In this document: in pieces, positions 1,436 to 25,863 of the stretch
How the letters are laid out: each line of letters starts with the position of its first letter
How positions within the stretch are numbered: position 1 is the stretch's first letter
Source of the DNA: Conidiobolus coronatus NRRL 28638
Lineage: Eukaryota; Entomophthoromycota; Entomophthoromycetes; Entomophthorales; Conidiobolaceae
Direction of reading: 5' to 3'
NCBI GenBank assembly: GCA_001566745.1
Contig: KQ964530.1
Coordinates: forward strand, 1-52,030
DNA: 52,030 nucleotides
Notes under the pieces: generated by a model
Databases searched by the model: none
Told to the model about the DNA's origin: nothing
The model's input: only the letters and a program-made list of their open reading frames with translations
Program-made: the position numbers and the translations under genes

Positions 1436-3298
1436 ATGAAATACATAACCTTACCGTACCAATTAAATTTGCAATTCGAAGGAATTATTCACCCAAAGAG
1501 CATTGCTTTGGGAGATATCGACGATGATAAGCTAAATGAACTTGTAGTAGGTACAATTTATGGTGATTTACACATTTACAAAGGGTCGCAAATATCTAGC
1601 CAGCAAAATGAACTAACACCTTGGAAAACTTGTAGAATAAACGGAACTATCACTTCAGTAGTAATTGGCGACATAAGAAATATAGGTAGATCTTCACTCC
1701 TGGTGATTACTGCAGAAGGCAATCTTTATCTTTTTGACACACCTTTTATCAACGCAGCGGAGGAGAAACCGAGTCAAAATATAAAGTGCCCGGAATTTAA
1801 TAAAGTTAAATACGGAGGTGACACCAGTCGCTGGGACTCCATATCCCCATTAAAATTCTCCCCCCGGGTGTCTCACCGGGTCTTACACTCGCCGTTTTCG
1901 GAAGCAGTCGATATGGGAGCGGTGCAGAGCAGTATGCAAACGAGTGGTATCGGAGGTGCCCAGAAATTAATAAACTTAAATTCAGCAGGCCATTGCCAAG
2001 GCCATTGGGCAGCTCAATCGGAAAATGATTTTGATAAACAAAATCTACCAGAGTGTCCAGAAATTAATAAACTTAAATTCTCCGCCCCATTGGCAAGCCC
2101 AGCTGAGTGCCCAGAATTTAATAGTTTAAATTCTCCAGGCCCAGTCGTCTCAACTCTTCCAACTCCTTCCATTTCCATATCTTCGGCTCAACGCGTTTTC
2201 TCAAAAAAAAACCATAACATAGTCACCCCGTTACCCTCTCCAAATATTCAAGAGCATATTAACAATAGTGAAAAAATCAAGTTAATACAAAAACCTAATG
2301 AGCAGCCCAGCTATTCAAATGTCATCTTACCTAATTGGACTTCTTCTATTCCTACAAACACCGTTGCGGCAATAATAGAAGATATTGACGGAGATGGGCT
2401 TAACGAGCTTGTGTTAGGCAGATCAGATAGGCAAATACACGCATATCAATTAACTGAAGGCCGTGCAATCTCAAATCAAACCTTACCAAATACAAAGTCA
2501 AAAACCAGAGGGATGCAAGTGTTTATAGGCATGGTTAGATCTCTCGACTATAACTCACTCTTTTGGCTCAATAAGGCTATGTTTCATGTCAAGGAGCCTA
2601 TCAGCAGTTTGAAACTCGGCTTCGACCTCAAAAACGATCCTGTTCTTATAGTGGGCCAACTTGGGGGGAGGTACCTTGAAATAGACGTAAACGGCCAAAT
2701 CTGCTTATTCCCAAAGGAACTCCAGGGTATCGATGCAGGGGTGCCGACCCAGCTTACAAATGTTTTACTGCCTACTAATTCAGTTGGAGTACTGACTGCT
2801 ACTTCCCAAGGGCTAATCAACTCCTATCGCCTAACAACAGGGCATCAAATCCAACAAATATTGTTGCCCAGCAACATGCCCATCCTCGACATCATAACAT
2901 TGCCCCCATTACAGCCATTTACCCAGCATCCGCTTGTAGCTTGCTGTCTTACAGATGGAACAACCTACTTTGTCGACCACAACTACCAAGTAGCTAAATT
3001 TTCTTTCGACAAGAGTGTGCGCGGATTTATTGGGGGTAATTTTGGTTTTGAAAAGAACTCCCCTTGCTTGGTTTATGTTGAGCTAAACGGCAGTATCACT
3101 TTGATACACCATTTAAATGTCAACTGCTCTACCAACCTCAGACTGCCAGAAGTGACAGCTAGTGATTTAGAAAGCTTGTTAAGGGGCGGTAAATATAGGA
3201 ATATATTAGAGCAACTTAATTGTTCGTCAAAATGGCCCCGAGCAAAAAGAGTTGCACTTTATCGCCACATTGCCCTATATCACTTTCAATCCACATGA
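1436..3298 (+). CDS. ITFG2: ITFG2-like FG-GAP beta-propeller protein (KICSTOR subunit)
   Basis: A 620-residue protein starting at the first ATG. Near the N-terminus it has GDIDDDKLNELVVG, and near residue 320 EDIDGDGLNELVLG; these are FG-GAP calcium-loop-like blades. Their order and flanking sequence match animal ITFG2, a KICSTOR component that recruits GATOR1 to lysosomes and restrains TORC1 under nutrient stress. A role in amino-acid sensing at the vacuole is inferred from the family. Human ITFG2 is about 450 residues. The extra length is mostly one block at about residues 110-290 made of Pro/Ser-rich, repeat-containing sequence inserted between early propeller blades (see the repeat at 1786-2136). 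No intron is needed. No other KICSTOR or GATOR gene lies in the window. Confidence 0.82.
   Translation: MKYITLPYQLNLQFEGIIHPKSIALGDIDDDKLNELVVGTIYGDLHIYKGSQISSQQNELTPWKTCRINGTITSVVIGDIRNIGRSSLLVITAEGNLYLFDTPFINAAEEKPSQNIKCPEFNKVKYGGDTSRWDSISPLKFSPRVSHRVLHSPFSEAVDMGAVQSSMQTSGIGGAQKLINLNSAGHCQGHWAAQSENDFDKQNLPECPEINKLKFSAPLASPAECPEFNSLNSPGPVVSTLPTPSISISSAQRVFSKKNHNIVTPLPSPNIQEHINNSEKIKLIQKPNEQPSYSNVILPNWTSSIPTNTVAAIIEDIDGDGLNELVLGRSDRQIHAYQLTEGRAISNQTLPNTKSKTRGMQVFIGMVRSLDYNSLFWLNKAMFHVKEPISSLKLGFDLKNDPVLIVGQLGGRYLEIDVNGQICLFPKELQGIDAGVPTQLTNVLLPTNSVGVLTATSQGLINSYRLTTGHQIQQILLPSNMPILDIITLPPLQPFTQHPLVACCLTDGTTYFVDHNYQVAKFSFDKSVRGFIGGNFGFEKNSPCLVYVELNGSITLIHHLNVNCSTNLRLPEVTASDLESLLRGGKYRNILEQLNCSSKWPRAKRVALYRHIALYHFQST
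1786..2136 (+). repeat. In-frame dispersed palindromic repeat modules inside the ITFG2-like gene
   Basis: Four related units start at 1786, 1956, 2053 and 2107. Units 1956-1983 and 2053-2080 match at 27 of 28 bases. The core is an inverted repeat: at 2107 the arms 2113-2121 (AGAATTTAA) and 2126-2134 are perfect reverse complements around a 4-base loop. Relative to the gene's reading frame the units at 1786, 2053 and 2107 share one phase and encode variants of ECPEINKLKF, while the unit at 1956 is in another phase and encodes AQKLINLNS. Between the units lies 2015-2053, identical over 39 bases to 24481-24519 in the dynein gene. The block contains no stop codon. Confidence 0.85.
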
Positions 3299-3428
3299 AG
3301 ATCGAGGGTAGTACAAGCGATAACAACGCTCTGGCTTGATACAAATTTGGACTATACATCACATTGTAATAAATTGGAATAATTCTTAACCTAACTTGTT
3401 GAAAAATAGAATGTAAAATAGAGTAATT

Positions 3429-4775
3429 ATGGCAAATATTAACTGGAAATATCTTTTATTCTATCACGAAATTCAAGATTATTTAAGCCAGGCCGAATCT
3501 TTTAAACTGGCGTTAACTTGCAAGTATATAAACAAAAAAGTAAAGCCAAAAACTAATTACACATTCAACTTAAAAACCTTTTTATTAATAAGACGGTATA
3601 AAAGGTTTGAATGTAGGCACCATATAAATTCTATCACTGAGGATATTAAGCACCAACTTGCGCGTTTTCAGTTTTATTTGAATATGCGTAATTATCCGGT
3701 TAGTAAGTTGGTTATATCTAATTGTTCAGATAATTATTATAGCTACCGAATTCCAAATATATTCAATAATATTCATCATTTACAATTAGTTGATGCGTGC
3801 GTTTCTTTAGAGTTATTACAGTATTTGTTGACAAACCTTCGACTCGGCTCTGTAAGCTTGGATTGTTGCGAATTTTTTACTCAAGAAGCAAGACTTTCTG
3901 CTATTTTACCTGAATCGTTAGTAAGTTTACACTTTGGAGAATGCTCTTTACGGCTTATTAACTATGATGAGGCGCCCACTACTGAATCTATCGCTGTGGG
4001 AAATTTGAACTCCCATTTATTCAAACTCGAACCTCAAAATATTAACAATCTCGAATACTTCGCCTTTTCTGCCCAATCAATTGATAGGATTAGCAATGTC
4101 AATGAGTTTTTGGCTTATAATCCTCAACTAAAATCAGTCACAGGTTTGTATCGCTCTTTAGACTTAGTTAATTTGCCAGTAATCCATAATCTATTTAGGG
4201 TTGACCACTTAAAGATTAAAGAAAATATCACTAACACAGCTATAGATCAACATTTCACCGAGTTTGATAATTTAAAATCTTTGTCGATTAGTCAATCTGA
4301 AAATATTCAACATATCACTCAGCTACTTGAATCCTGTCCAAATATAAAATATCTTGAAATCAAGCATATCAACGAGTACGACTATTATACCACTTTATAT
4401 CAAATACTATCCACAATGAAATTAAAAAAAATAAGTATCTCCTTCCAAGAGTCAAGCTCAGCTTCATTTTCTATTGCGGCTCCCATAATTGGTGAGTTAG
4501 AAATCCTAGAGTTTAGTCGTTTACCGCCTTCAAAATTCGACTTTGATACACTAGATGGGCTGACAAAGTTAATTACGATCAAATTTATCAACTTGGACTA
4601 CAAATTCTGTTTAAAAACCCCTCCCCTTGTTGAAAATGAAAAATTCAAGTGTTTATGTTACCCAACAAGTGTAGTATACCATAAGTTTAGCAAACTTTTG
4701 AAACATTTATCAGAAAGAGACCAATGGTCGAACTCGGTTGAGAACTCGGTTGAGAACTCGGTGGTTGAAAATTGA
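3429..4775 (+). CDS. F-box-like, leucine-rich-repeat-like protein
   Basis: A 448-residue intronless frame with an ATG start. The first 40 residues (LLFYHEIQDYLSQ then FKLALTCKYINKK) look like a degenerate F-box helix set. The rest has irregular leucine-rich segments such as NLRLGSVSLDCCEFF, SLVSLHFGECSL and NLKSLSISQSENI at LRR-like spacing. Proteins of this layout are substrate adaptors of SCF ubiquitin ligases, with the LRR face binding the target; the target is unknown. The C-terminus ends in a three-unit 12-base repeat giving SVENSVENSVVEN. The stop codon lies 51 bases before the ATG of the PX gene, so the two are tightly packed in the same orientation. The F-box call is moderate because the motif is weak. 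Confidence 0.6.
   Translation: MANINWKYLLFYHEIQDYLSQAESFKLALTCKYINKKVKPKTNYTFNLKTFLLIRRYKRFECRHHINSITEDIKHQLARFQFYLNMRNYPVSKLVISNCSDNYYSYRIPNIFNNIHHLQLVDACVSLELLQYLLTNLRLGSVSLDCCEFFTQEARLSAILPESLVSLHFGECSLRLINYDEAPTTESIAVGNLNSHLFKLEPQNINNLEYFAFSAQSIDRISNVNEFLAYNPQLKSVTGLYRSLDLVNLPVIHNLFRVDHLKIKENITNTAIDQHFTEFDNLKSLSISQSENIQHITQLLESCPNIKYLEIKHINEYDYYTTLYQILSTMKLKKISISFQESSSASFSIAAPIIGELEILEFSRLPPSKFDFDTLDGLTKLITIKFINLDYKFCLKTPPLVENEKFKCLCYPTSVVYHKFSKLLKHLSERDQWSNSVENSVENSVVEN
4731..4763 (+). repeat. 12-base tandem repeat at the 3' end of the F-box gene
   Basis: The unit AACTCGGTTGAG occurs at 4731-4742 and 4743-4754, with a partial third copy at 4755-4763. It is in frame and lengthens the protein tail by NSVE units. 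Confidence 0.85.
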
Positions 4776-4825
4776 CTAAAAATATACATATTAATCAAAA
4801 ATCTTCCAATTTAATACCAAATATT

Positions 4826-7684
4826 ATGGCTTCTAATAATAAAAAGGTGGCTTCCCATTTGCAGAGTTTTTCCCCTAATTTTGAACTAGAAATTAAGGAA
4901 GCTCAGCAGCTTAGGAGAGATTTGATTACGAGATGCATCGAGGAAGAGTTAGACTACCTCCTTAAGGTCAACTTTGTCAGGGCGCTAAAGCCTCGAGAAT
5001 ATAAGGCTGTAGATGCTGACGACACTATAGACAGAACCACCCCTCTTCCCTTCATGCAACATTTCTTCAATAAATATTTCCTCTCCTTCCCGTTCCTCGT
5101 TATCGGCAATATTAAGGAGTTCTTAGACAAGCTTGAGGTTTTTTTGGACCACCTCCTAAAGGCTAAATTAAGCACAGAGAATGACAGGAGTGACGTTACC
5201 AAAAGGACTCTAGTAGTACTAAAATTGAAAAAATTACTCGTTTTAATCTACAATAACTCTATCAACCTAAAACTTGATAATTTGACAGCAACAACAAAGT
5301 TTATCCCTCCCGCTATGTCTAGAGAGGGCTGTGTAAATCTGGATAATACAGCCAAAGATTTAGGAAAAGCTAATTTAACACAAAGCGAGAGTAGTTCAAA
5401 ACTACAAGGCGTTTTGTTCACTATTGACGTTGTAGGGGTTCGTAATGTAATTAAAAGGGGAACATTCAGGGAAACTAGTTATGGGGAATTTATCATTTTC
5501 CTCCAAAGCAAGGGGGAGGAACAACAGAGCTATACGAATAAGAGGTTTGAGCAGTTTAGGCAGCTTTACAAGGCCTTGATAAAAGAATTTCCCTTAATCG
5601 AGCTGCCATCTCTCCCAGATAAGGTAAAGAATGCAAATGACACTTTGTATAGAGAGAGTGATAGGCTTAACTTGCGCAGTTTTTTGAGAAGATTGTTAGC
5701 ACTTCCACAAATTGCTTTGAGCGGCCTAATGTACAGATTTTTGACAGAAACCCAGATACGATTGACTGAAGAGGACAAATTGGACATTAGTCAAAGGGTG
5801 CTTTATCAGGCGAAGAGGGACAAAGAAATGAAGCAGTACATTCAATTTATCGCAAAAGAGTCCACAAGATATAAGCACCTTTGGGACATCTGTAAAAAGG
5901 AATTAGCTCAGCCCGATGGTTTAATGAAATTCGAGCAAACTTTAAGAACCACTTCCAAGCTTGAAGAGCTGCCTGAGCACTATAGAGCTGCACTGGAGTG
6001 GGGTAGATTAAACTTTGCAGCCACTCTTTATACCACGTACTGCACCACAGATAATAGCGTTAGATTTTACCAAGCTTTAGTCTCCACTCACAAACAGATA
6101 CCCTACAGAACACTGAGCGCTATCCTTAAGTATTCCAACCCTACCCTAATGATTAAAGGTGTCATGGATCTCTTGCTCGCCCAGCCATTTGGCACCGCTT
6201 CACTAATGCAGAGAATTCTTACAACGGGTGTTACCGAGCAGGTAAAACTAGCAAAGGACGAGATCCAAGACTTGGAAAAGCAAATTAACGACCCTCTGAT
6301 CTGCCAAAGAATCGCCAATTTTGTCTATAAACCTGAAGAGCGCTCAACCTTCGACATACCTACCAACTCTAGCGATTACGACCGCCTATTGATAATTATG
6401 AATGATCACGACATAGGCCCCGATTTAACTGTGGAGTCTATCAGAAAATTTTGGGACTCCAAGCAGTGGGTCGACCAGTACAACGATCCTAATACCCCCT
6501 CCCCTCCCATTTCGCTTAACCAGAACGGGGATCCCGCATATCCCGAGTTTCGGTTTTTGGAGAAGATGCAGCAGCTGTTCGTCTTACAGACTAGGAAGAG
6601 AGACTTGGAGCAGATGACGAGCCTCCTATTCGAGGGTATTACAGGGGACCTTATGAAGGATGTGCTAGCTATCTTCTACGGACCCTTAGCAGAAGTATAC
6701 CAAGCTGCCGATATCTCCAGCTTTATAACAAAGGTGAGTGATTTTATCGAAGAATTAATTAAAACTATAAATGTCGTGAACCATAGTAATACGGATAGCC
6801 CTGACGCCCCAGTTTATGAGAAAGAATCTAGCGGTGGCCCACTACAAGAATTCATTGAATTAAGCAAAAGACATGAGCCCGCCCTCTACGAATTCATCCA
6901 CAACCTCTACAAGCAGAGTAAGGATGGCCTCTTCCAAAATATGCTCAACTGGCTGAGCAAAATACTCGAAGATTTTAAAGTTGGAGTTAACAAGACCCCT
7001 CTCGATCTTTTAGAGATAATCAATTCTAAAGTACCGGAAGATAATTTTCCTACCTTAAAGAATGACCTCTTAGAGCTAAAAGCTTGGCACTGGAGAAGAA
7101 AGGTAAGGAGGGCTAGGAATCTACAGAAGAAGCTCCTGGACTCGTCCGGCAAAAATATCGACGAGGACGTAAAGTCCCACTTTCTCAACAATACTCGCCA
7201 ATCGCCCCCTTCACAGGAACGGTGTGTCATTACTAGCGATGCCGATGGTACGAAGGATGAAGAGGATATCGTGGGCATCAGACGCCGAAACTCGTTCTTC
7301 GACACCGGGTTCGGGATACTCGACGCTGAAGACTTGAGGGAGATGGAGGATATCGAGGAGATGTCACTCAGACAGGCTTATTCAAATCCATTCGCTGCAC
7401 AAAGTTTGGCGAATGCTGACCTCTCGCAACCTATGGAGGTCCGCCTCAACCCTTTCGGCACCGCGCCCTACAAACCTGAGCCAACTAACCAGACTATTTC
7501 CTCAGCCAGCATTGGCCTCAATGACTTCAGCAATAACTCTACTCCTGCAAAAATTAAAAAGTTTGTAGCCCCCAAAACCTTACCCCAAATCAGCCAAGAG
7601 CCCTACCCTCAGGACCAAATCATAGTTATTCCTAGCTTGTTGTCAAATTTTAGACTTTGGGTAAAGGATAATTTGGTTGTTTAG
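4826..7684 (+). CDS. PX-domain protein with PX-associated and DUF3818 regions (yeast Lec1/YPR097W type)
   Basis: I take the ATG at 4826 (MASNNKKV); upstream the frame stays open only through a TTG at 4772. The product is 952 residues. Domain order: a PX-associated region at about residues 15-150 (PFMQHFFNKYFLSFPFL, then KLKKLLVLIYN), a PX phosphoinositide-binding domain at about 190-320 (RFEQFRQLYKALIKEFP, LPSLPDK, LRSFLRRLLALP), then a long helical DUF3818 region (YCTTDNSVRFYQALVS, LMQRILTTGV). The acidic, NPF-containing tail (SNPFAAQ, LNPFGT) could bind EH domains. Fungal relatives act in lipid handling and endomembrane transport. The gene is intact, follows the F-box gene closely and shows no oddity beyond long runs of CTC/CTA leucine codons late in the gene. 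Confidence 0.85.
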   Translation: MASNNKKVASHLQSFSPNFELEIKEAQQLRRDLITRCIEEELDYLLKVNFVRALKPREYKAVDADDTIDRTTPLPFMQHFFNKYFLSFPFLVIGNIKEFLDKLEVFLDHLLKAKLSTENDRSDVTKRTLVVLKLKKLLVLIYNNSINLKLDNLTATTKFIPPAMSREGCVNLDNTAKDLGKANLTQSESSSKLQGVLFTIDVVGVRNVIKRGTFRETSYGEFIIFLQSKGEEQQSYTNKRFEQFRQLYKALIKEFPLIELPSLPDKVKNANDTLYRESDRLNLRSFLRRLLALPQIALSGLMYRFLTETQIRLTEEDKLDISQRVLYQAKRDKEMKQYIQFIAKESTRYKHLWDICKKELAQPDGLMKFEQTLRTTSKLEELPEHYRAALEWGRLNFAATLYTTYCTTDNSVRFYQALVSTHKQIPYRTLSAILKYSNPTLMIKGVMDLLLAQPFGTASLMQRILTTGVTEQVKLAKDEIQDLEKQINDPLICQRIANFVYKPEERSTFDIPTNSSDYDRLLIIMNDHDIGPDLTVESIRKFWDSKQWVDQYNDPNTPSPPISLNQNGDPAYPEFRFLEKMQQLFVLQTRKRDLEQMTSLLFEGITGDLMKDVLAIFYGPLAEVYQAADISSFITKVSDFIEELIKTINVVNHSNTDSPDAPVYEKESSGGPLQEFIELSKRHEPALYEFIHNLYKQSKDGLFQNMLNWLSKILEDFKVGVNKTPLDLLEIINSKVPEDNFPTLKNDLLELKAWHWRRKVRRARNLQKKLLDSSGKNIDEDVKSHFLNNTRQSPPSQERCVITSDADGTKDEEDIVGIRRRNSFFDTGFGILDAEDLREMEDIEEMSLRQAYSNPFAAQSLANADLSQPMEVRLNPFGTAPYKPEPTNQTISSASIGLNDFSNNSTPAKIKKFVAPKTLPQISQEPYPQDQIIVIPSLLSNFRLWVKDNLVV

Positions 7685-7753
7685 CAACACTCAATAATTA
7701 TTAATTAATTGTAATAAATTTAATATATAAATTTAACTTGATACTTAATTGAG

Positions 7754-8740
7754 ATGAAAATTTGGCTTACAGTAGATAATAATACGGATAAGCTAATCCC
7801 AATTGAAGTGTACCCCGATTGGGAAATTGGCACTGTTAAAGCAGTTATCGAGGCTGAAGTCCAAATCCCTGTTTCAAATCAACTCCTATTCTATTACGAC
7901 ACTCTCCTCTCAGATATCTCTAAAACTGTGCAACATGTAGGCATTGGCGATGGGGATACACTATCCGTCATTAGTAACAAAAAATGGACTCCCGCTGGGC
8001 TGGCCAAAGGGCTTGAAGATTTTAATACGTTAGAAAGTACTGAGCCTCTCTCACCAGAAAGTGCACCCTTTAATATAGAAGCGCAGAGAAAAATTGAAGA
8101 GCTAATTAACCGAGAGAATATTATAAAGAATATGTACGAAGCACTCGAGTATAACCCTGAATCTTTCGCACAAGTCACAATGTTATACATCGATATTTCG
8201 GTAAATGAGCACCCTATAAAAGCTTTCGTTGATTCTGGAGCTCAAGCCACTATTATGAGTATGGCCTTGGCTGAAAAATGTGGCTTAACAAGGCTCATCG
8301 ACAAACGTTTCAAGGGTACTGCACAAGGTGTAGGTATTTCTCAATTCGTCGGTAGAATCCACAACGTTGGAATGAGATTCTCAAACGACCTAGTCGTTCC
8401 ATGTTCCATCACTGTACTTGAAAGCTGTACTGTAGACTTTTTATTAGGGCTTGATATGTTAAAGAGGCATACTGCGTGTATTGACTTGAAACAAAACGGA
8501 TTGATACTCTACGAGAAATTAATACCATTCTTGCCAGAGCACCAAATTCCTAAAACTCAATTACACTCTACACCTTTATCAGAAATTGGGTCCGACTTGG
8601 CAAGCCTAAAAGCCCAATTTTGCTCCAATGAGTCTGTAGAAACTTTGAAGAACTTAGGGGCATCTGAAGAGCAAGCTGCTAAACTATTGATCCAAGCTAG
8701 AGGAAATGTAGAAATAGCAGCTAGTTTACTATTTCAATAG
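7754..8740 (+). CDS. DDI1: Ddi1-type ubiquitin shuttle and retroviral-like aspartic protease
   Basis: A 328-residue protein with all three Ddi1 modules: an N-terminal ubiquitin-like fold (about 1-75), a retropepsin-like domain with active-site DSGA (AFVDSGAQATIMS, about residue 158) and the second-lobe GLDMLKRH, and a C-terminal UBA domain (ETLKNLGASEEQAAKLLIQA). Ddi1 takes polyubiquitinated proteins to the proteasome and cleaves some substrates, including in relief of proteasome and DNA-protein-crosslink stress. The catalytic aspartate is present, so activity is expected. Length is slightly below yeast Ddi1 (about 428) because the linker is short. The start ATG is preceded by an AT-rich 69-base gap after the PX gene. 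Confidence 0.95.
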   Translation: MKIWLTVDNNTDKLIPIEVYPDWEIGTVKAVIEAEVQIPVSNQLLFYYDTLLSDISKTVQHVGIGDGDTLSVISNKKWTPAGLAKGLEDFNTLESTEPLSPESAPFNIEAQRKIEELINRENIIKNMYEALEYNPESFAQVTMLYIDISVNEHPIKAFVDSGAQATIMSMALAEKCGLTRLIDKRFKGTAQGVGISQFVGRIHNVGMRFSNDLVVPCSITVLESCTVDFLLGLDMLKRHTACIDLKQNGLILYEKLIPFLPEHQIPKTQLHSTPLSEIGSDLASLKAQFCSNESVETLKNLGASEEQAAKLLIQARGNVEIAASLLFQ

Positions 8741-11400: not shown

Positions 11401-11412
11401 AAGCCTAAAATT

Positions 11413-12807: not shown

Positions 12808-12818
12808 GCGAAGTGCTT

Positions 12819-13595
12819 TTACATGTATTTTCCACTGCTAGAAGCTTTAAATCTACTAGCAAGCCCACCCATATCATTTAATGTCCTTAATATGTCGCCC
12901 TCTCTATTTCCGTCGGCTTTAAACTTTAAATTATCCGGGGGCTTATTTTGGCTACTTGGCCCCCTTTTGCTTACATATTCATCCATTAAACTTTTACCCC
13001 TGTACTCTTTATTATAACTAACTACAAACTGCTCCAAATTTTGCTGGCGCCGTTTCTCGACTTTGGAAATGCTTTCCTTTGTCTCTTCTTCAGCCTGCTC
13101 TTCAGCCTGCTCTTCAGCCTGCTCTTCAGCTTTCTTATCCTCAGATTTACCGCGCACTATACGGTTATACTTTTGTTGAGGTGTTTCTGTCCACAGGCTG
13201 TTGTCCAAATCTTTATTACCAAGGACCCTTGAAGATTGGTTAAACTGTCTATTTTTCAAATTTAAGGGATCTACTTTTAATTGAGAGGTTGGTGGGACTA
13301 CCATCCATTCTTCTCGCTTTGGTTTGTCACCATTTTTATTTAATTTGCCTTGGTGTCGCTGCTCGATTATGGGGAGTGCGTTGTTTAAAGCACCCGCAGA
13401 TGATGCTTTGTCCGGAAAAGAGGGGCCAATAAAGTCTTCGGCCGGAAGTGCGCCTTTGCGCTTTGATACCACGTGCTCACTTTCATATAAACTTTCTGGC
13501 AAGGCGGGCCCGCTTACTGGTCGTTTTTTGGAGGGTTTAGGTGGGGGTGGTTTGGGCTCAATAGAAGGAAACTCCCTCTTTTCATCCTTTTTCAT
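12819..13595 (-). CDS. GPALPP1-like DUF3752 protein
   Basis: The ATG is at 13595 (MKKDEKREFP); the longer frame begins with TTG. The product is 258 residues, mostly charged and probably disordered. It has the diagnostic motif SGPALPE near residue 30, a second related motif FIGPSFPD, and the C-terminal DUF3752 block (EEWMVVPP through LWTETPQQKYNRIV and later YNKEYRGKSLMDEY). The family is nuclear and of unclear function, with proposed links to RNA processing. An internal 12-base tandem repeat encodes AEEQ units. It overlaps nothing and converges on the Ofd1 gene. Confidence 0.82.
   Translation of the reverse strand: MKKDEKREFPSIEPKPPPPKPSKKRPVSGPALPESLYESEHVVSKRKGALPAEDFIGPSFPDKASSAGALNNALPIIEQRHQGKLNKNGDKPKREEWMVVPPTSQLKVDPLNLKNRQFNQSSRVLGNKDLDNSLWTETPQQKYNRIVRGKSEDKKAEEQAEEQAEEQAEEETKESISKVEKRRQQNLEQFVVSYNKEYRGKSLMDEYVSKRGPSSQNKPPDNLKFKADGNREGDILRTLNDMGGLASRFKASSSGKYM
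13089..13130 (-). repeat. 12-base tandem repeat encoding AEEQ units in GPALPP1
   Basis: On the plus strand TTCAGCCTGCTC recurs at 13089, 13101 and 13113 with a half copy at 13125. On the coding strand it reads AEEQ three to four times. Confidence 0.88.
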
Positions 13596-13719: not shown

Positions 13720-15042
13720 ATGACAATTCGATTACCTATAGCTAACAAAAGAGCATTCCACAGAATTTACCAGAAATATTTATCGTCTAAAACTCTCAAC
13801 TTTCAAAGTGAAAATAGTACAAGAGTAGTTAGTTTTTATGATGAGAAAATTGATAACTTTGCAAATCAACCTATTAGGCCTGTCACGTTGGAAAAACTAC
13901 TTCAATTTGGTACCCCCCCCTTAACACAATCTCAGTTATTGAGCTCTGCGCGCTATACACAAACTGAACTACCCCAAAGACTCGCTAGAAGAGTTCAACA
14001 ATTCCAAAAATTACCCTATATAGTCGGGATTAACCCACACTTAAGCTCTGTTTACCACTTATATTACAACTCTTTTGAAGCGATTTCTAGTTTCCCTAGG
14101 ATTGAAACAGAAAATCAGCTAAATGATTTTAGGGAAATGATCGATAATCTAGTTAAAAGTCACGCTGGCGTAATCCCCTCGCTTGCTCAAGGGTTTTTGG
14201 AATGTCAGAAGTACATATCTGAAGATTCTATAGCCAGCTTCTTAGACGACATGATCCGTAGTAGAATTGGTATTCGACTCATTGCAGAACAACACCTTGC
14301 CCTTCATATGGAACAGCCTAACTGGGTAGGCGTTATTCAAAAGAACCTATGCCCAAAGACACTGTTTACAACCACTGCGAAAACGGTTGATCAAATTTGT
14401 CAAATTAACTACGGAGCTACACCATCTATTATATTCAACGGGTATGATGACTGCACATTTCACTATGTCCCAGTCCACCTCGAATATATAGCGTGTGAAT
14501 TGTTAAAAAACGCATATCGAGCAACTGTTGAGTTTGCAAACAAACATAAGATAGAAAACTACCCACCTATCGAGTTGACTATTTCTGCAGATTCCGGGCT
14601 ACTAGGAATTCGTATCCGTGATAGAGGCGGGGGTATGCCCTCCTCAAATTTAAAGGATATCTTCAAGTATTCATACACGACTGTTCCATCTATCGGAGAT
14701 ATCGGCAGCGGAATGCCTCAGGATTTATTAAACTTAAATTCTACGGCCAGCGCTCAGAATTTCAAGGAAACTCAAAAAAGTAACCACGGCTGCAAACCAT
14801 TTGTGCAACGGAGTTGCAGTTCCGATACCATGGGCTCTATTTTCGATCTCCAAGCAATACTGAACATGCAAGCTTGTATCGGTGGGCCAATGGCTGGCTT
14901 GGGGTATGGACTTCCAATGACAAAATTGTATGTGGAATATTTTGGGGGGCAATTCCACCTGCAAACAATCGACGGCTATGGTACAGACGCATTTTTGGTT
15001 TTAAAGAGTATTGACGAGCAGGCATACCAAACCCAAATTTAA
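13720..15042 (+). CDS. Mitochondrial PDK/BCKDK-family protein kinase
   Basis: I choose the ATG at 13720 (MTIRLPIANKRAF), which gives a basic, serine-bearing presequence suited to mitochondrial import; upstream codons start only from TTG. The 440-residue product has the PDK family core: LPYIVGINPHLSSVY, the region around SRIGIRLIAEQHLALH, the N box ELLKNAYRATVEF, the G1 box DRGGGMPSS and the G2 box GLGYGLPMTK, a GHKL-type ATP site. Such kinases phosphorylate and switch off the pyruvate (or branched-chain ketoacid) dehydrogenase E1 in the matrix; fungal Pkp1/Pkp2 are the likely equivalents. The ATP lid between G1 and G2 carries an unusual insert of about 60 residues that includes one of the dispersed repeat modules. 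Confidence 0.9.
   Translation: MTIRLPIANKRAFHRIYQKYLSSKTLNFQSENSTRVVSFYDEKIDNFANQPIRPVTLEKLLQFGTPPLTQSQLLSSARYTQTELPQRLARRVQQFQKLPYIVGINPHLSSVYHLYYNSFEAISSFPRIETENQLNDFREMIDNLVKSHAGVIPSLAQGFLECQKYISEDSIASFLDDMIRSRIGIRLIAEQHLALHMEQPNWVGVIQKNLCPKTLFTTTAKTVDQICQINYGATPSIIFNGYDDCTFHYVPVHLEYIACELLKNAYRATVEFANKHKIENYPPIELTISADSGLLGIRIRDRGGGMPSSNLKDIFKYSYTTVPSIGDIGSGMPQDLLNLNSTASAQNFKETQKSNHGCKPFVQRSCSSDTMGSIFDLQAILNMQACIGGPMAGLGYGLPMTKLYVEYFGGQFHLQTIDGYGTDAFLVLKSIDEQAYQTQI
14705..14870 (+). repeat. Repeat-derived insert in the PDK ATP lid
   Basis: The segment lies between SYTTVPSIGD and GPMAGLGYGLP, where PDK proteins usually have a short lid. At about 14715-14742 it resembles the ITFG2-gene repeat: 14728-14742 (TTAAACTTAAATTCT) matches the right half of that unit exactly, apart from what follows. 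It is read in the same frame as the off-phase ITFG2 unit (DLLNLNS against KLINLNS). The flanking part (SNHGCKPFVQRSCSSDTMG) is GC-richer than the gene. Confidence 0.6.
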
Positions 15043-18262: not shown

Positions 18263-19795
18263 TGAGTTGTCTCTTTATTGTAAGTAATGAAAAATTACCA
18301 CTATTACACAAATTAATCAAATCGAATATGTCAAAATTTTATACCTAATAATAGCATTAAAGCAAGCAGAGAATTTTATCCAAATCCTATCGCATCATGA
18401 CAACCAGGCGAACCCTGACTTTAGTTATCGCGCTTCAAGTTAGACAAGATAATCTATTGAGAATACAAGCCTTATACCTACAAGGGCTCACTTTTTTTGA
18501 AGTTGTCCATGATTAGCTTCTACAGTCTTGGTAAATTTTACAGACAAGCATCTAATATTGTTGTAACTTCAATCTTTATACTTTGGTACTTGGAATAGAA
18601 AATCGTTAATAAGTATCTTTGCGGTACAACTTGTAAGTACGTAATGTATATGCTTATTATCAATACTAGTATTTACAAGTAAGACACTAGTTCTTCTTCT
18701 CCCGTCACTAGACCTGGCACGGATCTAGCATTTCTGTCACTATTAATGTAGTAGACACTCTCTTTACTAACTTTTCACCAACAATAATCCAACGGGTTCA
18801 ATTTATAAATGAGATTTATGCTATTGATTAGCTATTTAGACATCAAGAGTCTCAAGCATGCGTCTATATAATAATTAATAACAGTACCTTTAATTCATTT
18901 CAAAGTAGATAAAAATATGTTAGACTCGGTGCTAAATCGAATCTGGTCATCTTTAAACGCAAAGTTATTAACCTTATACACAATATAACATCCATAATTT
19001 AGATATTTCTATTCAACAATAAAAATAAGGTAACAAGCCATTATATTTAGCTTTTGCCCCTAATGATATGGGGGATAGTAAGATGGGTGTAAGAATTTTA
19101 CCTATAGATAGAAAATTAAAGACATTAGTACTTGGAGTACTTTGTTAATTTGCATAGCAAAACATATATGCAGCTGATTGCTCTAGCAATCATTTGAGAT
19201 TTTGTTAAACTCCTCCGGAGATTGCCTACGATATCTACAGTTATAACCACGACTCAAGAAGGAGGATTCTAAGGGAATTGAAGACTCTTTTTAACGAAGA
19301 TTAAGCTTGTTTTCTTTGTAAATACCCTGCTTTATTCAACGGTCTTGCTTAACATCCTTCCAAATGATTTCCAATGAATGCGGAACCGCTTCTGATCTCT
19401 TTATTTTGCCAGAGCTTTTCTTAGGAGCTTGCGACTATCCGGCTCCTTGTATTCCTTCTTTGCAAGTAACAGTTTATTACTTTTGATGAAAGCACTGATA
19501 ATTTCTTCTGTAGCCATGGATATTACTGTAGCAATGGCATAATATTTGACAGAGTTTGAGGAAAATAGTTCACAGTTTAGACGTGGCTGTCCTTTATTTT
19601 TTGTTTAGTAATAGCAATAAGTTTTGGAGTTATAATATAAGACCACTTGTACTATTACCTCGATCCGTTCCTGCAAACTGGCCTGGTCAGCTTCAACCTA
19701 TGAATGTCCCTAATAATACAGTACCGGTAAATTCATATCCAATGCAAAAGTATAAGTATGCTTTTTAAATTAATTGGTCAGATTATTAGGTAAAG
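18263..19795. other. Gene-free stretch, decayed
   Basis: Frames on both strands are broken every few dozen codons. A minus-strand run around 19520-19390 (MATEEIISAFIKSNKLLLA, then KEYKEPDSRKLLRKALAK, then a stop) looks coding-like but matches nothing I know. A plus-strand proline/asparagine-rich run lies at 19556-19768. I see no RNA gene or terminal repeats. Confidence 0.45.
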
Positions 19796-20090
19796 ATGAA
19801 AATTAAAACTATACACACTATTAGTATCAATTTTTTCTTCCATAAATGAAGCATACTCCAATATACTAGAATCTGAGAACGTAGAAAATATAGAATTCCC
19901 TGTATTTGATACAACTTATCATGAATATTGGGATAAAATATATAGATTTGAAGAAAAAGTTAACAACTATTTTTTTGAACTAAGGTTGCAGACGGATCCC
20001 CGTTATGGTGTTAATTATATAAGCAATGGTGTCATAATCTGGGTAGTCTCCACACTGCATACAAAATTTTTAAATGTTCAGAAATTTTAA
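19796..20090 (+). pseudogene. Relic of a small secreted protein, frameshifted after its ATG
   Basis: From 19800 a frame of 96 codons is open to a stop at 20088. It begins KLKLYTLLVSIFSSINEAYS, a good signal-peptide shape, and continues FPVFDTTYHEYWDKIYRFEE. The ATG at 19796 is one base out of register in an A-run, so one extra A would explain the break. The TYHEYWDKI stretch is faintly like the start of a secreted M14 metallocarboxypeptidase, but no catalytic motif is present. It overlaps the nuclease-like relic on the other strand. Confidence 0.35.
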
Positions 20091-20655
20091 CTTTATAAAA
20101 GGTAGGATAAGTATCGTCCATTGTTACACATGGGAAGAAGTATTCTGTCAGAGGTTTCCCGCACTTCTTTCTAATTTCATTATTATGTCGGAAAGCAGCT
20201 ACACACTCTGCAATTATTTGGAGCTCAGGCTCGAGTTGGCCTTTTTCAATAAAGAAGTAAAAGTATATTATATCTTTGATTTTGAATTTAGTAGAAGTAC
20301 AAAGTTTAGAGCAAAAGAGGAACTGGCTAGTTTCATTAAACATAAGTCGAATAGATATAACTGGTCTAATCGCCTCCCTTAATTTCAGATGCCTTGCGCT
20401 TTGTAAGCATTTCACTTCATTCATGGCTTTGTACTTTTTACCCATCTTCTTACGGACTCTGTAAGTTGTTGTCATCAAAGGATATGAAAAGTTATCTTTA
20501 GTGTACTCTTGCCAACGAGGAGGAGTAAGCGCTACCTTTAAATATTTCGCATGAGGAGGCGATGGCCAAAGCTCTTTGAAAATTTGGTTAGAAACTTCTG
20601 AATTTTTGAAATGTATTTTGGGTTTTGGACATAAGTCATACCATAATATGCGCAA
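20032..20655 (-). pseudogene. Broken PD-(D/E)XK-like family member
   Basis: The informative part lies about 100 residues into the frame: FFIEKGQLEPELQ, then IIAECVAAFRHNNEIRKK, then FFPCVTMDDTYPTFYKVKI. It aligns by eye with the intact gene at 47649-48392 (DVEAQVIAEAIAAYQYN, FPCIVMFGAYPMFYLI). Where that gene has the catalytic EDK, this copy has only EK, so the acidic centre is damaged. The N-terminal half (KYKAMNEVKCLQSARHL) does not look like the family and the C-terminal end is missing. Probably a dead copy. Its closeness to basidiomycete-like family sequences (EPELQ, NNEIRKK) is recalled, not checked. Confidence 0.55.
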
Positions 20656-20919
20656 AAAATGTTGGCTTAAAAACTTAGAGCATAAATTTGTTACCTATTT
20701 GGGCGACATCCTTATTCACAGTGATTTTTTTGACATTCATTTGCAACAAAATTCCTACTGCTTGTGAGCCAACATGAAAACCTAAGCCCATTGCGATTTA
20801 CTTCTTCGTTGACCCTTGTCTTGTTAGTCTGGCCTGCTGCCAAGAATGGTTGTGCAAATACTTTACCTTGCCAAAGTAGACTCTTGGGTTTTCAGGTTCC
20901 AATTCCCAATAATAGTTAG

Positions 20920-22998
20920 TTAAGACCACCATGATTGAATATCATCTTTAATTAATTGATCTGTTAATAAAACTGGAGCTCTTAGTTCAATTAAGATCCA
21001 AACATACATTTTCCAAAAGTCGTAATTAGAATCGATTTGTATATATTGAATACTTAAGGTAGGCAAAGGCTTATTATTTTGGGGGTTACAAGCTTTGGAT
21101 ATCTGCTGAACTTTCACCATTAATTCATCGGCGGTCATTAATTGTGAGTCAATTTCAGACAATTTAGATTGATAATAGGACACAACTGCAAGTAGATTCT
21201 CCACAATTGGGGAAATTAAGGGGTGTGACTGAAGTTGCAGTAGTTTGTCATTTCGCAGCAACAAACCGTAAACAAACTGAGAGCTACTTGGCAAACCCTT
21301 GGCTACAATAGTGTTAATAGTTATTAGTACTATATAGATAATTTCTTCAAATATTTTAATCCCTTCCAACTTATCACCCCTGTCTCTATTCGGCTGTCCA
21401 TATTTTAACAAATTCTTATACCCAATATCTACCAAACTAATAATTTTTTGAACTAATAAGGGGTGAATATTATGTAATTGCTTACCTAAGCTAGCTATGC
21501 AGGATAAGCTTAAACTATGTATGAATTGGTTTTTAATCCCTACTAAGTTAATATTAAAGACTTTTATTACGACAAGCATAATTAATTCGCACAGTGGGAT
21601 TGATCTAAATAATCTTTCTTGAAACCAAGCTTGCTTATGAACCATTGTTTTTTGTAAACTTTCAATGTATAAAGAGTCATTACAAAAAGCTAATAGGGTA
21701 GGTAATAGAATATGGCAGTGTGCTAGTTTATTGTTTTGAATAGCTGATTCGTATATTAATTTGATGATAGGGATTATTAATTTATCCGGTTCAGCCACAG
21801 AGCAACAGTAGTTTAGAAATTCGGTGTTTTTTATAGAAAATAGATAAAATAAGACGCTAGTTTCTTCTATATGGAGGTTGGGTGTCAAAATATAATAAAC
21901 TTGACTGATATCCAGCCTAAAAAAATCTGTACCTTCAACACCGCTACCACCTCCCGATATCGGCTCGAAATAATCTTCAAACACTTTTATAAAAGGGTTT
22001 TTATTATCTATTGTGTTAGTGAAGCATAGGAGCGAAATTAGATGAACAGCTAAATAAGAAAGTGTGTTGGGGTAATGGGCCGACTTTAATCGAAAATCTA
22101 AGCGGTTTTGCTGCTTGGCTGCTACTCCAATACCGTCGAATAGGCAGCTGTATGCATAGCTAAACATACCTGTCAGGCTATAACCTTCAAGTGTTTTAGG
22201 GACAAAATAAAGGGATAAACACCTATTAATGATAATATTCGCATTGTGCCCGTGATTGATTAGAATATAATTTAATACGTAAGCGTCGTCTAAAGAGTAA
22301 GAATCGTGAGATGCCAGTGTTAGTAGCGTGACTAATGCTTGATGGTAGAAGTTTATAGATACTATAGATTCAAGCTCTAAGCTTATAACTACTTCGATTA
22401 GCCAATCGATAAATACAAAGTATTGGGGTTTATCTTTTTTACTATCTAGAAAATTAAATTCTTTTGGAATATTTATTTCTTTAGCTGGCCCATCAATTTG
22501 AGCTACTAATTGATTAAAATAAAGCGAATTTAGCATTAACTTAATCAGTTTTTGAGTAAAAAATAGAGCATTTGACACACTATTGCTAATTTGGGGTTTA
22601 ACCTTAATACTGCTTCTAACTGGGCAAGATGAAATAATAAATTTGACTATTCTATTAATTTTATTACAATTATGATCAAATATTAACTCTGGGCTGTATT
22701 TGTTAATAGTTCGAATTATTATGTCTTCCTCTTCTCTGTTTAAAGTTAAACAAAACGCGTCTGCAGAAAATATATTTTCCAAAGAGGTTATATCTGATAA
22801 CTCGGTTATTTTGGACAAAATAGCCTGAATTTCGTATAGTGATGTTGGGTGTGAGTATGCTCCAGCGATAGGCTGATTTGTCTTTCTTTTGTTAACAAAA
22901 GAATCTGGTAGTTTGTCCTCACGCGTAATGTCCATTAAAGGGTCAGTTGAACCCTTTGGAAATCGTAATGGGTTTGTCATTTCGAAGATAAAAATCAT
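20920..22998 (-). CDS. DYM: Dymeclin
   Basis: A 692-residue all-helical protein with an ATG at 22998; MTNPLRF six codons in is an alternative start. The C-terminal half follows dymeclin closely: FEEIIYIVLITINTIV, FVYGLLLRNDKLLQLQ, HPLISPIVENLLAVVSYYQ, and the ending YDFWKMYVWILIELRAPVLL. The middle has INFYHQALVTLLTLASHD. Dymeclin is a peripheral Golgi protein, lost in human Dyggve-Melchior-Clausen dysplasia and absent from budding yeast, with a role in Golgi organisation and traffic. A small glycine-rich loop (SGGGSGVEG) at about residue 350 is extra. Full length compared with human (669). Confidence 0.85.
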   Translation of the reverse strand: MIFIFEMTNPLRFPKGSTDPLMDITREDKLPDSFVNKRKTNQPIAGAYSHPTSLYEIQAILSKITELSDITSLENIFSADAFCLTLNREEEDIIIRTINKYSPELIFDHNCNKINRIVKFIISSCPVRSSIKVKPQISNSVSNALFFTQKLIKLMLNSLYFNQLVAQIDGPAKEINIPKEFNFLDSKKDKPQYFVFIDWLIEVVISLELESIVSINFYHQALVTLLTLASHDSYSLDDAYVLNYILINHGHNANIIINRCLSLYFVPKTLEGYSLTGMFSYAYSCLFDGIGVAAKQQNRLDFRLKSAHYPNTLSYLAVHLISLLCFTNTIDNKNPFIKVFEDYFEPISGGGSGVEGTDFFRLDISQVYYILTPNLHIEETSVLFYLFSIKNTEFLNYCCSVAEPDKLIIPIIKLIYESAIQNNKLAHCHILLPTLLAFCNDSLYIESLQKTMVHKQAWFQERLFRSIPLCELIMLVVIKVFNINLVGIKNQFIHSLSLSCIASLGKQLHNIHPLLVQKIISLVDIGYKNLLKYGQPNRDRGDKLEGIKIFEEIIYIVLITINTIVAKGLPSSSQFVYGLLLRNDKLLQLQSHPLISPIVENLLAVVSYYQSKLSEIDSQLMTADELMVKVQQISKACNPQNNKPLPTLSIQYIQIDSNYDFWKMYVWILIELRAPVLLTDQLIKDDIQSWWS

Positions 22999-23136
22999 TT
23001 CACATATGACAGCTAATTTTAATTTAAAGAAAAATAACTAAAAGTAAGAATAAGTAAAAATAAGAATTAGTATGAAAATTAAAAATAAAATAATATATAA
23101 ACTTTATTTGGTAGTTTCCTCGATAAACTTTATTTG

Positions 23137-23859
23137 ATGGATTCATTGATTTATATTTTAATCTTTAGCACTGGAATATGCTACGGCCAAACTTTCGAGA
23201 TAATTCTATTATGTTTCTTTGGGTCTTATGGGCAAATAAATAGGGATTTGCTATTACTTATTATTATACAACTTTCTAACTGTATCCCAATATTAACTTT
23301 ATATTTATTTCAGCAGACCAAGAAGCAGTATATTATTGTAATATTAAATACATTGAATGGAGTGTTTGCTACTGTAGCCTTTTGTGGTTATTGTATTCTT
23401 GTTATGAATTTGTCAAAGTATTTACTTAATAATATGTGGATGAGGTATTTTAAGTTTCACACCTTAGTAATATTTATAACTATGTGTATACTCACAGTGA
23501 GTGAAATTATTATTCCATTTAACAAAAAATGGGACTTTACTTACCACTTAACAGCTGCGTTGTTTGAGTCTCTCAATTATGCGTTTGAAATTATTTTTCA
23601 TATGTATTTTCTTATCAACTTTGGTAAGTATTTGGTTAATAATCCTGAAGTTAGAATATTGTATTGGAAGTATGTATCCATTGCTGTATTGACTGCTGCT
23701 ATAGACACTTTATCTTTAGTTTTAATTTTCAGTTCCTTTCCTTACGCAGGATATTCTTTGATACATGTTTCTATCTGTATTAAATCTAAGATAGAATATG
23801 TTTGTCTCGGAAGAATCAGACAGTGCATATTTCACACCATCCAAACCTCGAATGTATGA
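23137..23859 (+). CDS. Multi-pass membrane protein of unknown function (about seven helices)
   Basis: A 240-residue protein starting at ATG 23137. Hydrophobic spans are evenly spaced: LIYILIFSTGICYG, LLLLIIIQLSNCIPILTLYL, VFATVAFCGYCILVM, FHTLVIFITMCILTVSEIII, ALFESLNYAFEIIFHMYFLI, YVSIAVLTAAIDTLSLVLIF and a shorter one near the end. This gives six or seven helices with short loops, like the orphan seven-helix families that are multicopy in some fungi. There are no rhodopsin lysine or GPCR signature motifs I can point to. The gene is flanked by AT-rich DNA and is intact. Function not recognised; a receptor-like role is only a guess. Confidence 0.6.
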   Translation: MDSLIYILIFSTGICYGQTFEIILLCFFGSYGQINRDLLLLIIIQLSNCIPILTLYLFQQTKKQYIIVILNTLNGVFATVAFCGYCILVMNLSKYLLNNMWMRYFKFHTLVIFITMCILTVSEIIIPFNKKWDFTYHLTAALFESLNYAFEIIFHMYFLINFGKYLVNNPEVRILYWKYVSIAVLTAAIDTLSLVLIFSSFPYAGYSLIHVSICIKSKIEYVCLGRIRQCIFHTIQTSNV

Positions 23860-24255
23860 AGGTCGCTTTCCCGCTTTATTTGAGAATTAAAAAAAAATAT
23901 TGGTAATAAATTTAAACCGCGATCAAGTTGTCTAGGTTCATAATAATACATGGGTTTCATTTTGGAGCATTAGTGATAGAATTATGTAGCAGATTTTACA
24001 GTGTAAAAATATATATGCAGCATAAGTGATTTTCTCTGAAAATCAAGTGATTGTAGCCCATAAGTATTTTCAGTTTCTGTTCCCTATAAGCTCTAGCTTT
24101 AAGCTATAGGAAAGTTTGGTGGATTTGAAGGTCCTTGAACATTTTGTTGGGAATTGTGAATGCTAGCCCTTGTACTAAAAACTAAATTTATTGTTAACTT
24201 ATTGACTGTTATATAATAATATTGAGCCATCTCAAACAATCTATAAAAAATAAAA
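23860..24255. other. AT-rich intergenic region
   Basis: No open frame of note. It presumably holds the membrane-protein gene's 3' end and the dynein-chain promoter, but no specific element can be assigned. Confidence 0.5.
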
Positions 24256-25863
24256 ATGGCAAAAATAGAGGAGCAACCCAGAGAAATATGGTTAAATATA
24301 TTAAACAGCGTAGCTAACTCAAAAGCAACAGCTACTAAAAATATCCTGCTACTAGGTGAACCTAATAGTGGTAAAACTAGTTTAATTAACTATTTTAAAA
24401 TTGATAATATTTTGAAAGAGGTTGAAAATAGTGAAGATTTTGACTCCAAACTGGGCGGCACGCCACTGCCGATACTGCACCAATCGGAAAATGATTTTGA
24501 TAAACAAAATCTACCAGAGCGGGGTGCCACGGAATGCGGTTCGGCCAGCATCGGAGCCGATGGAAGCCTTCTTAGACAAAACCAATCGGGGGGTCGCACA
24601 GCCCCTTTATTGGAGGAAACAAAAAGCATCCAAAATAATTTGGGGTTGACCTACGAGTTTGTTGATTTAAAGGATGAGTTAGAAGAAATTATTGGCAGGT
24701 TAAACTTTTTTGAATTAAGCGATACAAATGCAGAATTCCATAAATTATTAGATTTAGCTTTAAATTTAAATAATTTCCAATCTACTTTAGTTTGTATATT
24801 TTTAGACTGGTCAAACCCTTGGAGTTTTGTTAGAATATTACAAAAATGGCTAACTTGTTTGGAGGTTGCTATTTATAATATCCAAGAAAGGGGTGGGCAC
24901 CCAACAGAAGAAAACTTAAACGGTATCAAAGTAGATAGCAATGGATCAGCCAATAGATCTTCAGAGCATTCTGATTTATTACCCCCCGGAAATGGCTGTT
25001 TAACAATGAATTTGGGTATACCTATTATTGTTATCTGCTCTAAGTCCGACCAGATGAAAGTTATCGAAAGGGAAGGTAACTACAAAGAAGAAGAATTTGA
25101 CTTTATTCAACAAACCTTACGTACTACTTGTTTACATTATGGAGCCTCTCTCTTTTACACCTCTAACCAATCTAAAGCAAGCCTCATCTTATTAAAGAAC
25201 TACATCTTGAGCAAATCTTTTCCCACAGTCGATAATATCTCGATCCTACCCAACCATATTTTGAATTTTAACTTCAAGGCCCAAGTAGTTGATAGGGAAA
25301 AAGTATTTGTACCAGCTGGTTGGGACAGTTGGAATAAGATTAGGGTATTGCGCGATTCTTTTAACTGCGAGGGGGTTTTACAGGGAATGGAGTTTGATTT
25401 GAGTCATGAAAGATCCAAGTATTTACCCTATGTAGAAGCTGAGCTGAATCACGACACCGATGAAATTATGAGCATTAATGAGTACTACTATTCAATTGTT
25501 AAAATTCCATTCTCTAAAGACCAAAGGTCTCAAAATGGCGAAGCGCCTATTGAAGCCTATTCCGAGCAAAAATTCTTGGAAGAACAATTCAATACAATAC
25601 TGAATACTACAGACTCTTCTAATACTAAAGTTAATGGTAACTTGGGCTATGTAGGCACTTTGGGTAAACTTCACACTCCATCATTGAACCAAACAACTCG
25701 AAATAATAACAATGCTACCAATAACAAGCTATCTATTTCTACCACCGAACCAGTGCTTCCGATAGCCGCAGAATCAGCAAGCCAAACGCCTGTAGAACCT
25801 CAAAATGCAGAAAGGTTGAGTAATTTTTTCGGCGACTTTTTGAAGAAGGGTGTTAAAAACTAA
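24256..25863 (+). CDS. Dynein light intermediate chain
   Basis: A 535-residue protein. The Ras-like domain opens with IWLNILNSVANSKA and the P-loop GEPNSGKT (residues 34-41); later strands include VCIFLDWSNPWSFVRILQKW and GIPIIVICSKSDQMK, and FVPAGWDSWNKI is the hallmark LIC motif. At the C-terminus, ERLSNFFGDFLKKG corresponds to LIC helix 1, which in animals binds cargo adaptors such as Hook and BICD proteins. The chain holds cytoplasmic dynein heavy chain and links it to adaptors. Between the P-loop and the next strand (LTYEFVDLKDEL), about residues 60-125 are a GC-rich insert carrying the repeat shared with the ITFG2-like gene. Single exon, otherwise intact. Confidence 0.9.
   Translation: MAKIEEQPREIWLNILNSVANSKATATKNILLLGEPNSGKTSLINYFKIDNILKEVENSEDFDSKLGGTPLPILHQSENDFDKQNLPERGATECGSASIGADGSLLRQNQSGGRTAPLLEETKSIQNNLGLTYEFVDLKDELEEIIGRLNFFELSDTNAEFHKLLDLALNLNNFQSTLVCIFLDWSNPWSFVRILQKWLTCLEVAIYNIQERGGHPTEENLNGIKVDSNGSANRSSEHSDLLPPGNGCLTMNLGIPIIVICSKSDQMKVIEREGNYKEEEFDFIQQTLRTTCLHYGASLFYTSNQSKASLILLKNYILSKSFPTVDNISILPNHILNFNFKAQVVDREKVFVPAGWDSWNKIRVLRDSFNCEGVLQGMEFDLSHERSKYLPYVEAELNHDTDEIMSINEYYYSIVKIPFSKDQRSQNGEAPIEAYSEQKFLEEQFNTILNTTDSSNTKVNGNLGYVGTLGKLHTPSLNQTTRNNNNATNNKLSISTTEPVLPIAAESASQTPVEPQNAERLSNFFGDFLKKGVKN
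24457..24620 (+). repeat. GC-rich in-frame insert in the dynein chain, with a 39-base segment shared with ITFG2
   Basis: Positions 24481-24519 are identical to 2015-2053 and encode the same 13 residues, QSENDFDKQNLPE, in the same frame. The match stops abruptly at both ends. The sequence that follows is strikingly GC-rich: by hand count 49 of 80 bases at 24521-24600 are G or C, in a gene that is otherwise AT-rich. Confidence 0.9.

Follow-up and report, generated by a model that had tools for sequence, protein, structure and literature searches.

Rickettsia palindromic elements (RPEs) are units of ~150 bp, and the sections of PMC10969869 drawn on here describe 44 insertions, belonging to ten families, within a single bacterial genome. 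Like the coding palindromes of Wolbachia and Methanocaldococcus, as portrayed in parts of that report and of PMC2996958, they are hairpin-capable repeated DNA lying in frame within tolerant segments of unrelated conserved genes. Here we describe a comparable arrangement in a fungal nuclear genome, that of Conidiobolus coronatus NRRL 28638, starting from the first 52,030 nucleotides of contig KQ964530.1 (C98 1-52030; this whole stretch is the window, and positions without a contig name refer to it). A 39-base segment (the 39-mer) and a module of ~31 nt (M3) lie within GC-raised inserts of conserved genes. As in RPEs, in-frame insertion into unrelated conserved genes is found (six genes, with inferred insert bounds for SEC8 and EXS). 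In contrast to the ~150-bp RPEs, the core here is ~31 nt, the shared stretches are 35-49 nt with variable ends, there are 10 clear copies in a fungal nucleus and mobility is putative; neither a constant ~150-bp unit with fixed ends nor many dispersed copies were found.

Insertions templated during break repair offer a second comparison. POLQ insertions in mouse B cells span 2-35 bp (sections of PMC7454005), and at yeast breaks local foldback insertions, mostly of ~5-34 bp, occur along with distant templated insertions (sections of PMC11724301). The inserts described here resemble such Pol theta, and Pol delta foldback or distant, products in their short copies, both orientations, distant sources and local inversions, as far as those same sections describe them, but differ in reaching 49 nt, in their retention within coding loops of conserved genes and in carrying the same module at several loci. 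Palindromes inside the mitochondrial genes of Nematomorpha likewise place inverted repeats within eukaryotic protein-coding genes; in the portion of PMC6649704 consulted these are long, perfect and reported to be actively maintained, whereas here the arms measure 7-8 bp and are often broken, the setting is nuclear, and different genes have sequence in common. PARCEL repeats are also palindromic coding repeats spread among genes, in eukaryotic microbes too, but are presented in parts of PMC2996958 as tandem 25-residue motifs in open reading frames without assigned function, where we find short modules in conserved genes and several frames. Among the open-access matches listed, we found coding palindromes from bacteria, archaea, algae and mitochondria, as well as repair insertions from laboratory systems, but no fungal nuclear case, subscription papers lying outside the scope of that survey.

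DNA-level copying between these inserts is recurrent, and the reading frames through the inserts are kept open. We favor, at roughly even odds (a probability of about 0.5), a reading in which DNA has repeatedly passed between loop insertions in unrelated genes, by templated copying of the repair type, with the 39-mer as one trace.

The 39-base segment and its two host genes

The two copies of the 39-mer lie in the following genes of the window.

1436-3298, plus strand: ITFG2-like gene, an open frame of 620 amino acids (PF15907).
1775-2149, plus strand: patchwork insert of ITFG2, residues 114-238, of which the three aligned homologues lack most; bounds approximate.
2015-2053, plus strand: 39-mer copy 1, within the ITFG2 insert; its core, GATTTTG-ATAAA-CAAAATC (2027-2045), could form a hairpin.
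24256-25863, plus strand: dynein light intermediate chain (DLIC) gene, an open frame of 535 amino acids (PF05783).
24451-24606, plus strand: GC-rich insert (56%) of DLIC, residues 66-117; bounds approximate.
24481-24519, plus strand: 39-mer copy 2, within the DLIC insert.

The first-pass annotation described an identical in-frame segment in two unrelated genes, and this description is confirmed. The copies are identical at 39 of 39 bases, both sit on codon boundaries of open frames and share one frame with the translation QSENDFDKQNLPE, and their flanks are unrelated, diverging immediately on either side. Chance is excluded as the source of this identity because the match has an expectation value (E) of 2.2e-12 in a BLAST search of the genome (17,500,425 bases in 186 contigs). 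Beyond the ~260 kb of sequence examined directly, genome-wide counts given here come from pattern and BLAST searches and are lower bounds.

The 39-mer is not itself a dispersed repeat: a whole-genome search allowing up to 3 mismatches returned just these 2 copies, with 0 for the reversed control, and this rules out that interpretation in the 17.5-Mb genome. Its 23-base core also occurs at 2 places in the pattern search. Both copies are enclosed by the longer GC-raised, in-frame inserts listed above, a context absent from the first-pass annotation, which also did not mention the M3 module that occurs four times in the ITFG2 insert and again in other genes. We also note, within the SEC8 insert (C23 ~204858-204884, minus strand), the sequence CTTTGTTAAACAAAATCAACTACC, which is similar to the 39-mer core (a 13-point match) and, from the resemblance of the letters, may be a diverged relative of it.

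Inserts in six conserved genes and the segments they share

A third gene of the window has a comparable insert.

13720-15042, plus strand: branched-chain ketoacid dehydrogenase kinase (BCKDK) gene.
14689-14874, plus strand: BCKDK insert, after the HATPase_c match and before the conserved GPM-G-GYGLP stretch.

Further inserts of this type are present outside the window in SEC8, in an EXS-domain protein related to SLC53A1/XPR1 (EXS) and in POL3. Distant homologues wholly or mostly lack the inserts of POL3, BCKDK, DLIC and ITFG2. Most of ITFG2 residues 114-238 is missing from the Entomophthora, Massospora and Gilbertella homologues (alignment, n = 3), and most of the DLIC insert is missing from 10 of 11 aligned homologues, the eleventh of which begins later. 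The best named homologues of these two proteins come from Neoconidiobolus, Basidiobolus, Massospora and Entomophthora, with low protein identities. The BCKDK insert region comprises ~62 residues, as against ~20 in the 2 solved chains shown. The POL3 insert falls within the C4-type zinc-finger region (PF14260), with a CxxC pair on either side, and at its position the two nearest solved Pol delta chains have a gap of 23 residues; it is missing from 6 of 7 other aligned POL3 proteins, the seventh being a close sister. In SEC8 the Sec8_N and Sec8_C matches flank the insert, a region that alignments to solved structures miss, and in EXS 56 residues separate the matched stretches flanking the insert, compared with 33 in the SLC53A1 chain. 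For SEC8 and EXS the bounds are inferred, because absence from homologues is not residue-by-residue there; in all six genes the bounds, like the list of M3 copies below, were set by our choice.

The inserts read as protein. None of their 405 codons is a stop in the frame of the gene, whereas the two alternative forward frames have 23 and 27 stops, and shuffled inserts have a mean of 20 stops (0 of 2000 were stop-free). Because of this lack of in-frame stops, splicing out of the segments, the outcome that the first-pass annotation had set against its own reading, is disfavored; the inserts are probably coding and their removal from the transcript is unlikely. Insert GC is 44-56%, compared with 35-41% in the rest of the same genes. 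Among 18 GC peaks in the ~260 kb, 4 correspond to the ITFG2, DLIC, SEC8 and EXS inserts, and the other 14 are, by eye, ordinary coding sequence or unclear.

A lower limit can be set on the age of one insert. A sister POL3 protein (P0079; 98% identical, from a JGI source and the nearest in the protein collection), the sole close relative found, has an insert of equal length that differs at 5 of 28 residues, as opposed to 14 of 1020 elsewhere (Fisher P 8e-5). The POL3 insert therefore predates the split between the two and is fast-evolving. Of the 5 changes, three fall where the POL3 and EXS DNA of our genome is identical, so the POL3/EXS likeness, judged from protein, would be younger than the split or since homogenized.

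Inserts of different genes share segments with abrupt ends in four pairs of loci: ITFG2 and DLIC (39 nt, 100%), ITFG2 and SEC8 (49 nt, 88%), EXS and POL3 (49 nt, 96%), and ITFG2 and a site on another contig, C23:51749-51783 (35 nt, 97%). The shared stretches are thus 35-49 nt long, with variable lengths and ends. Across the inserts of the six genes, 25 between-gene segments (score >=13) cover 487 of 1215 bases. Of 20 draws of equally long pieces from the remaining sequence of these genes, 19 yielded no segment and one yielded 2. In a comparison of seven sequences, including the C23 site and with slightly wider bounds than for the count of 25, 42 segments were observed, whereas dinucleotide shuffles (n = 6) had 0 or 1 each.

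The same DNA is read in different ways in different inserts. A stretch read as CPEFNKVKY in ITFG2 is read as RNLIKLNT in SEC8; within ITFG2 the same DNA yields both CPEINKLKF and AQKLINLNS; and AQNLLNLKS of POL3 corresponds to ETLSLINSG on the opposite strand in EXS, these two inserts having opposite orientations relative to their genes. Since M3 copies occur in two forward frames and in reverse, copying acts on DNA and not on protein. This part of the earlier proposal, a DNA module copied into unrelated coding regions with retention of the frame, is supported; its assignment to a mobile class of the Rickettsia type is possible but is not the reading that we prefer.

As far as found, M3 and the 39-mer are confined to contigs C98, C23 and C85 (3 of 186). 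With seven loci placed at random on 186 equal contigs, 3 or fewer contigs were hit in 0 of 200,000 draws, a model that is only indicative because actual contigs differ in size and some of the loci lie next to one another. This confinement suggests short-range copying.

The M3 module

M3 has a consensus near GTGCCCAGAATTTAWTAAACTTAAATTCTCC, the core of which is an imperfect palindrome with 8-bp hairpin arms. There are 10 clear copies at 6 loci: 4 in ITFG2, 2 in SEC8 and 1 each in BCKDK, EXS, POL3 and C23:51749-51783. DLIC is the seventh locus of the family, having the 39-mer and no M3 match. Those in the window are as follows.

1784-1823, plus strand: M3 copy 1 of ITFG2, read as CPEFNKVKY; a SEC8 stretch matches the 49 nt at 1790-1838 with 88% identity.
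1954-1995, plus strand: M3 copy 2 of ITFG2, read in a different frame as AQKLINLNS.
2052-2090, plus strand: M3 copy 3 of ITFG2, read as CPEINKLKF.
2106-2143, plus strand: M3 copy 4 of ITFG2, with a core 1 nt shorter; 35 nt are common, at 97%, with C23:51749-51783.
14715-14749, plus strand: M3 copy of BCKDK, read as QDLLNLNS.

Pattern searches of the genome recovered the main form at 8 places and the form shorter by one base at 2, with 0 in both controls. A sequence model built from the 10 copies and run over 260,030 bases (22 sources) returned the 10 with E <=6e-8 and a next match at E 0.05; the 39-mer is not matched by it. A weak eleventh candidate in SEC8 (model E 6.7) was excluded from the count. 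Beyond the core, the extent and the ends of the likeness vary from pair to pair. The copy at C23:51749-51783 (L028 1749-1783) is 35 nt long, not a multiple of 3, and lies in a short open reading frame lacking a Pfam match, whose flanks would share one frame if the copy were removed; it is possibly the sole M3 copy outside a conserved gene.

Across the 10 copies, 87.5% of hairpin cells are paired. Four of the pairs are invariant; of the others, three fail to pair in 2 copies each and one does so in 4. Compensatory evolution of the hairpin was looked for and rejected, the 10 copies showing 0 compensatory pair changes. Compared with shuffles, M3 copy 4 of ITFG2 folds strongly (z -4.85), the 39-mer less so (z -1.85) and the POL3 module no better than they do (z 0.29), such that a strong fold is present in 1 of 4 modules tested; the whole inserts of DLIC, BCKDK, EXS and POL3 range from z -0.66 to 1.34. 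Viral contigs contained 0 exact matches to the M3 core, and Rfam at gathering thresholds gave no match in the window, L037, L046 or L028. The POL3 insert also has an internal 9-base repeat, GTCTCCCGC.

Origin of the inserts

We favor templated copying over a self-mobile element of the Rickettsia kind because of the variable lengths and ends, both orientations, the patchwork make-up, the tandem repetition in ITFG2 and the small number of contigs. Under this model, loops tolerant of extra residues would have gained patchwork inserts of raised GC, partly as 20-50-nt segments passed from insert to insert. Break repair or template switching, in the form of microhomology-mediated templated insertion, would do the copying, foldback synthesis would produce the palindromic cores, and selection would then retain outcomes that are stop-free, in frame and located in loops. 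As expected of templated insertions, matches elsewhere occur in either orientation, covering the 487 bases given above and with EXS and POL3 in opposite orientation.

Several observations weigh against this model. The 35-49-nt segments are at or above the printed lengths of repair inserts (2-35 bp and ~5-34 bp), and microhomology at the 39-mer junctions amounts to at most 3 nt (GAG) at one end, by eye and in a single case. As many as 728 of the 1215 insert bases are without a partner in another gene's insert, and genome searches with the inserts of ITFG2, DLIC, SEC8 and EXS (4 of the 6 whole) found matches only within the family. The left flank of M3 (GTGCCCAGAATTTAWTAAACTTAAATTC) is fairly constant, more element-like than random filler would be, and a module that recurs is better explained by a mobile hairpin element. 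Self-comparison of the ~260 kb at E 1e-3 gave 21 pairs, 5 within this family and 16 from other repeats or paralogues. One match of 62 bp at 82% joins a place without a long reading frame (L019 2633-2694) to a 408-residue open frame (L031 9110-9171), so short shared stretches are not wholly limited to the insert family; this match lies outside the M3 family as far as seen. Finally, the insert and M3 family was seeded from the window itself, and the clustering on contigs serves as a rough argument.

A selfish palindromic element tolerated within proteins, as in Rickettsia, would make M3, and perhaps the 39-mer, a mobile hairpin unit that is read through. The common core and hairpin arms of the 10 copies at 6 loci fit this idea, as do the in-frame positions of M3 in five conserved genes, in several open frames, and of the 39-mer in DLIC, the fold values of M3 copy 4 and the 39-mer, and the one 35-nt copy outside any recognized gene. 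We nevertheless consider it rather unlikely, as M3 varies in its ends and lengths and lacks compensatory changes, shuffled sequence folds as well as the other modules and inserts do, the few copies are on 3 of 186 contigs, no clear target-site duplication was seen on inspection by eye, which did not assess the 9-base repeat of POL3 as one, and the 39-mer falls outside the M3 model. That such units form a nuclear eukaryotic counterpart of RPEs, a small hairpin-cored family of an early fungus that moves between genes, is read in two or more forward frames as well as in reverse, and becomes fixed in loops of conserved proteins, is an unlikely proposition. A foreign source, whether mitochondrial GC clusters or an extrachromosomal molecule supplying filler at breaks, would account for why the four inserts searched have, over most of their length, no donor in the nuclear assembly. 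The assembly has no cox1 match and seems to be missing the mitochondrial contig, and exchange of fragments between mitochondrion and nucleus is described for Conidiobolus in parts of PMC8632527. However, the mitogenomes given there have 26.6-27.9% GC as opposed to 44-56% in the inserts, and the Rfam result likewise speaks against this source, which we regard as improbable. Introns or introner-like elements removed from mRNA would fit lineage-specific inserts in conserved genes, but the stop-free frame and the equal length of the P0079 insert despite its 5 changes make this very improbable. Scarcely any weight attaches to an artefact of assembly or contamination: the assembly is a draft in 186 contigs, but the other pairs are 88-97% rather than 100% identical and lie on different contigs, and the POL3 insert recurs in a protein from another source.

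Within templated copying, either DLIC or ITFG2 may have been the donor of the 39-mer. As a special case, and with less than even odds, the 39-mer would be native to DLIC and have been transferred in a single event to ITFG2, at a distance of 22 kb. DLIC is a candidate donor because SENDFDK, part of the encoded peptide, is similar to SEEDFFK or SEEEFFK at the same place in DLIC of Neoconidiobolus and Massospora (shuffle P 0.005 over 7 residues, 0/1500 over 8 and 0.016 over 9) and because the 39-mer, with 31% GC, is closer to the genome in composition than its flanks. Two adjoining M3 units of ITFG2 may, by eye, display the site with and without the 39-mer. On the other hand, NSEDFDSK, just upstream in DLIC, is a rival native motif that outscores the 39-mer peptide over 12 residues (P 0.058), and MAFFT placed the 39-mer core opposite an M3 core instead of aligning the units as an empty site. 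The internal empty site seen by eye in ITFG2 was accordingly set aside, adding EXS to the alignment having been of no help.

Other repeats were encountered in the sequence examined. A 52-bp repeat (96%) at C23:93820-93871 and C23:117039-117090 (L032 and L034) has a palindromic core, GATTTTGAGTCTCAAAATC, that also occurs exactly at C115:15671-15697. Its translation in one frame, DFESQNLIVLPWAADR, is presumably a DDE transposase-like fragment; with this frame and the third exact core on C115, the repeat was taken as unrelated to the insert family. A ~100-bp repeat (77%) at C98:61322-61419 (L018) and C98:92467-92567 (L022), having a GC-rich core, GTGCRGGGGGCACGGYGCCY, and no long open frame, is perhaps another short element. 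In the window, a 12-bp tandem repeat (TCTTCAGCCTGC) at 13075-13134 encodes AEEQ repeats within a minus-strand open reading frame (12819-13595). In C23:1-10000 (L023), 7211 of 10000 bases are N.

If the favored reading is correct, new protein segments in conserved genes of a eukaryotic nucleus would here have been built from patches of DNA copied between unrelated genes. It would provide a testable link from break repair, or from a tiny mobile element, to the origin of lineage-specific protein inserts.

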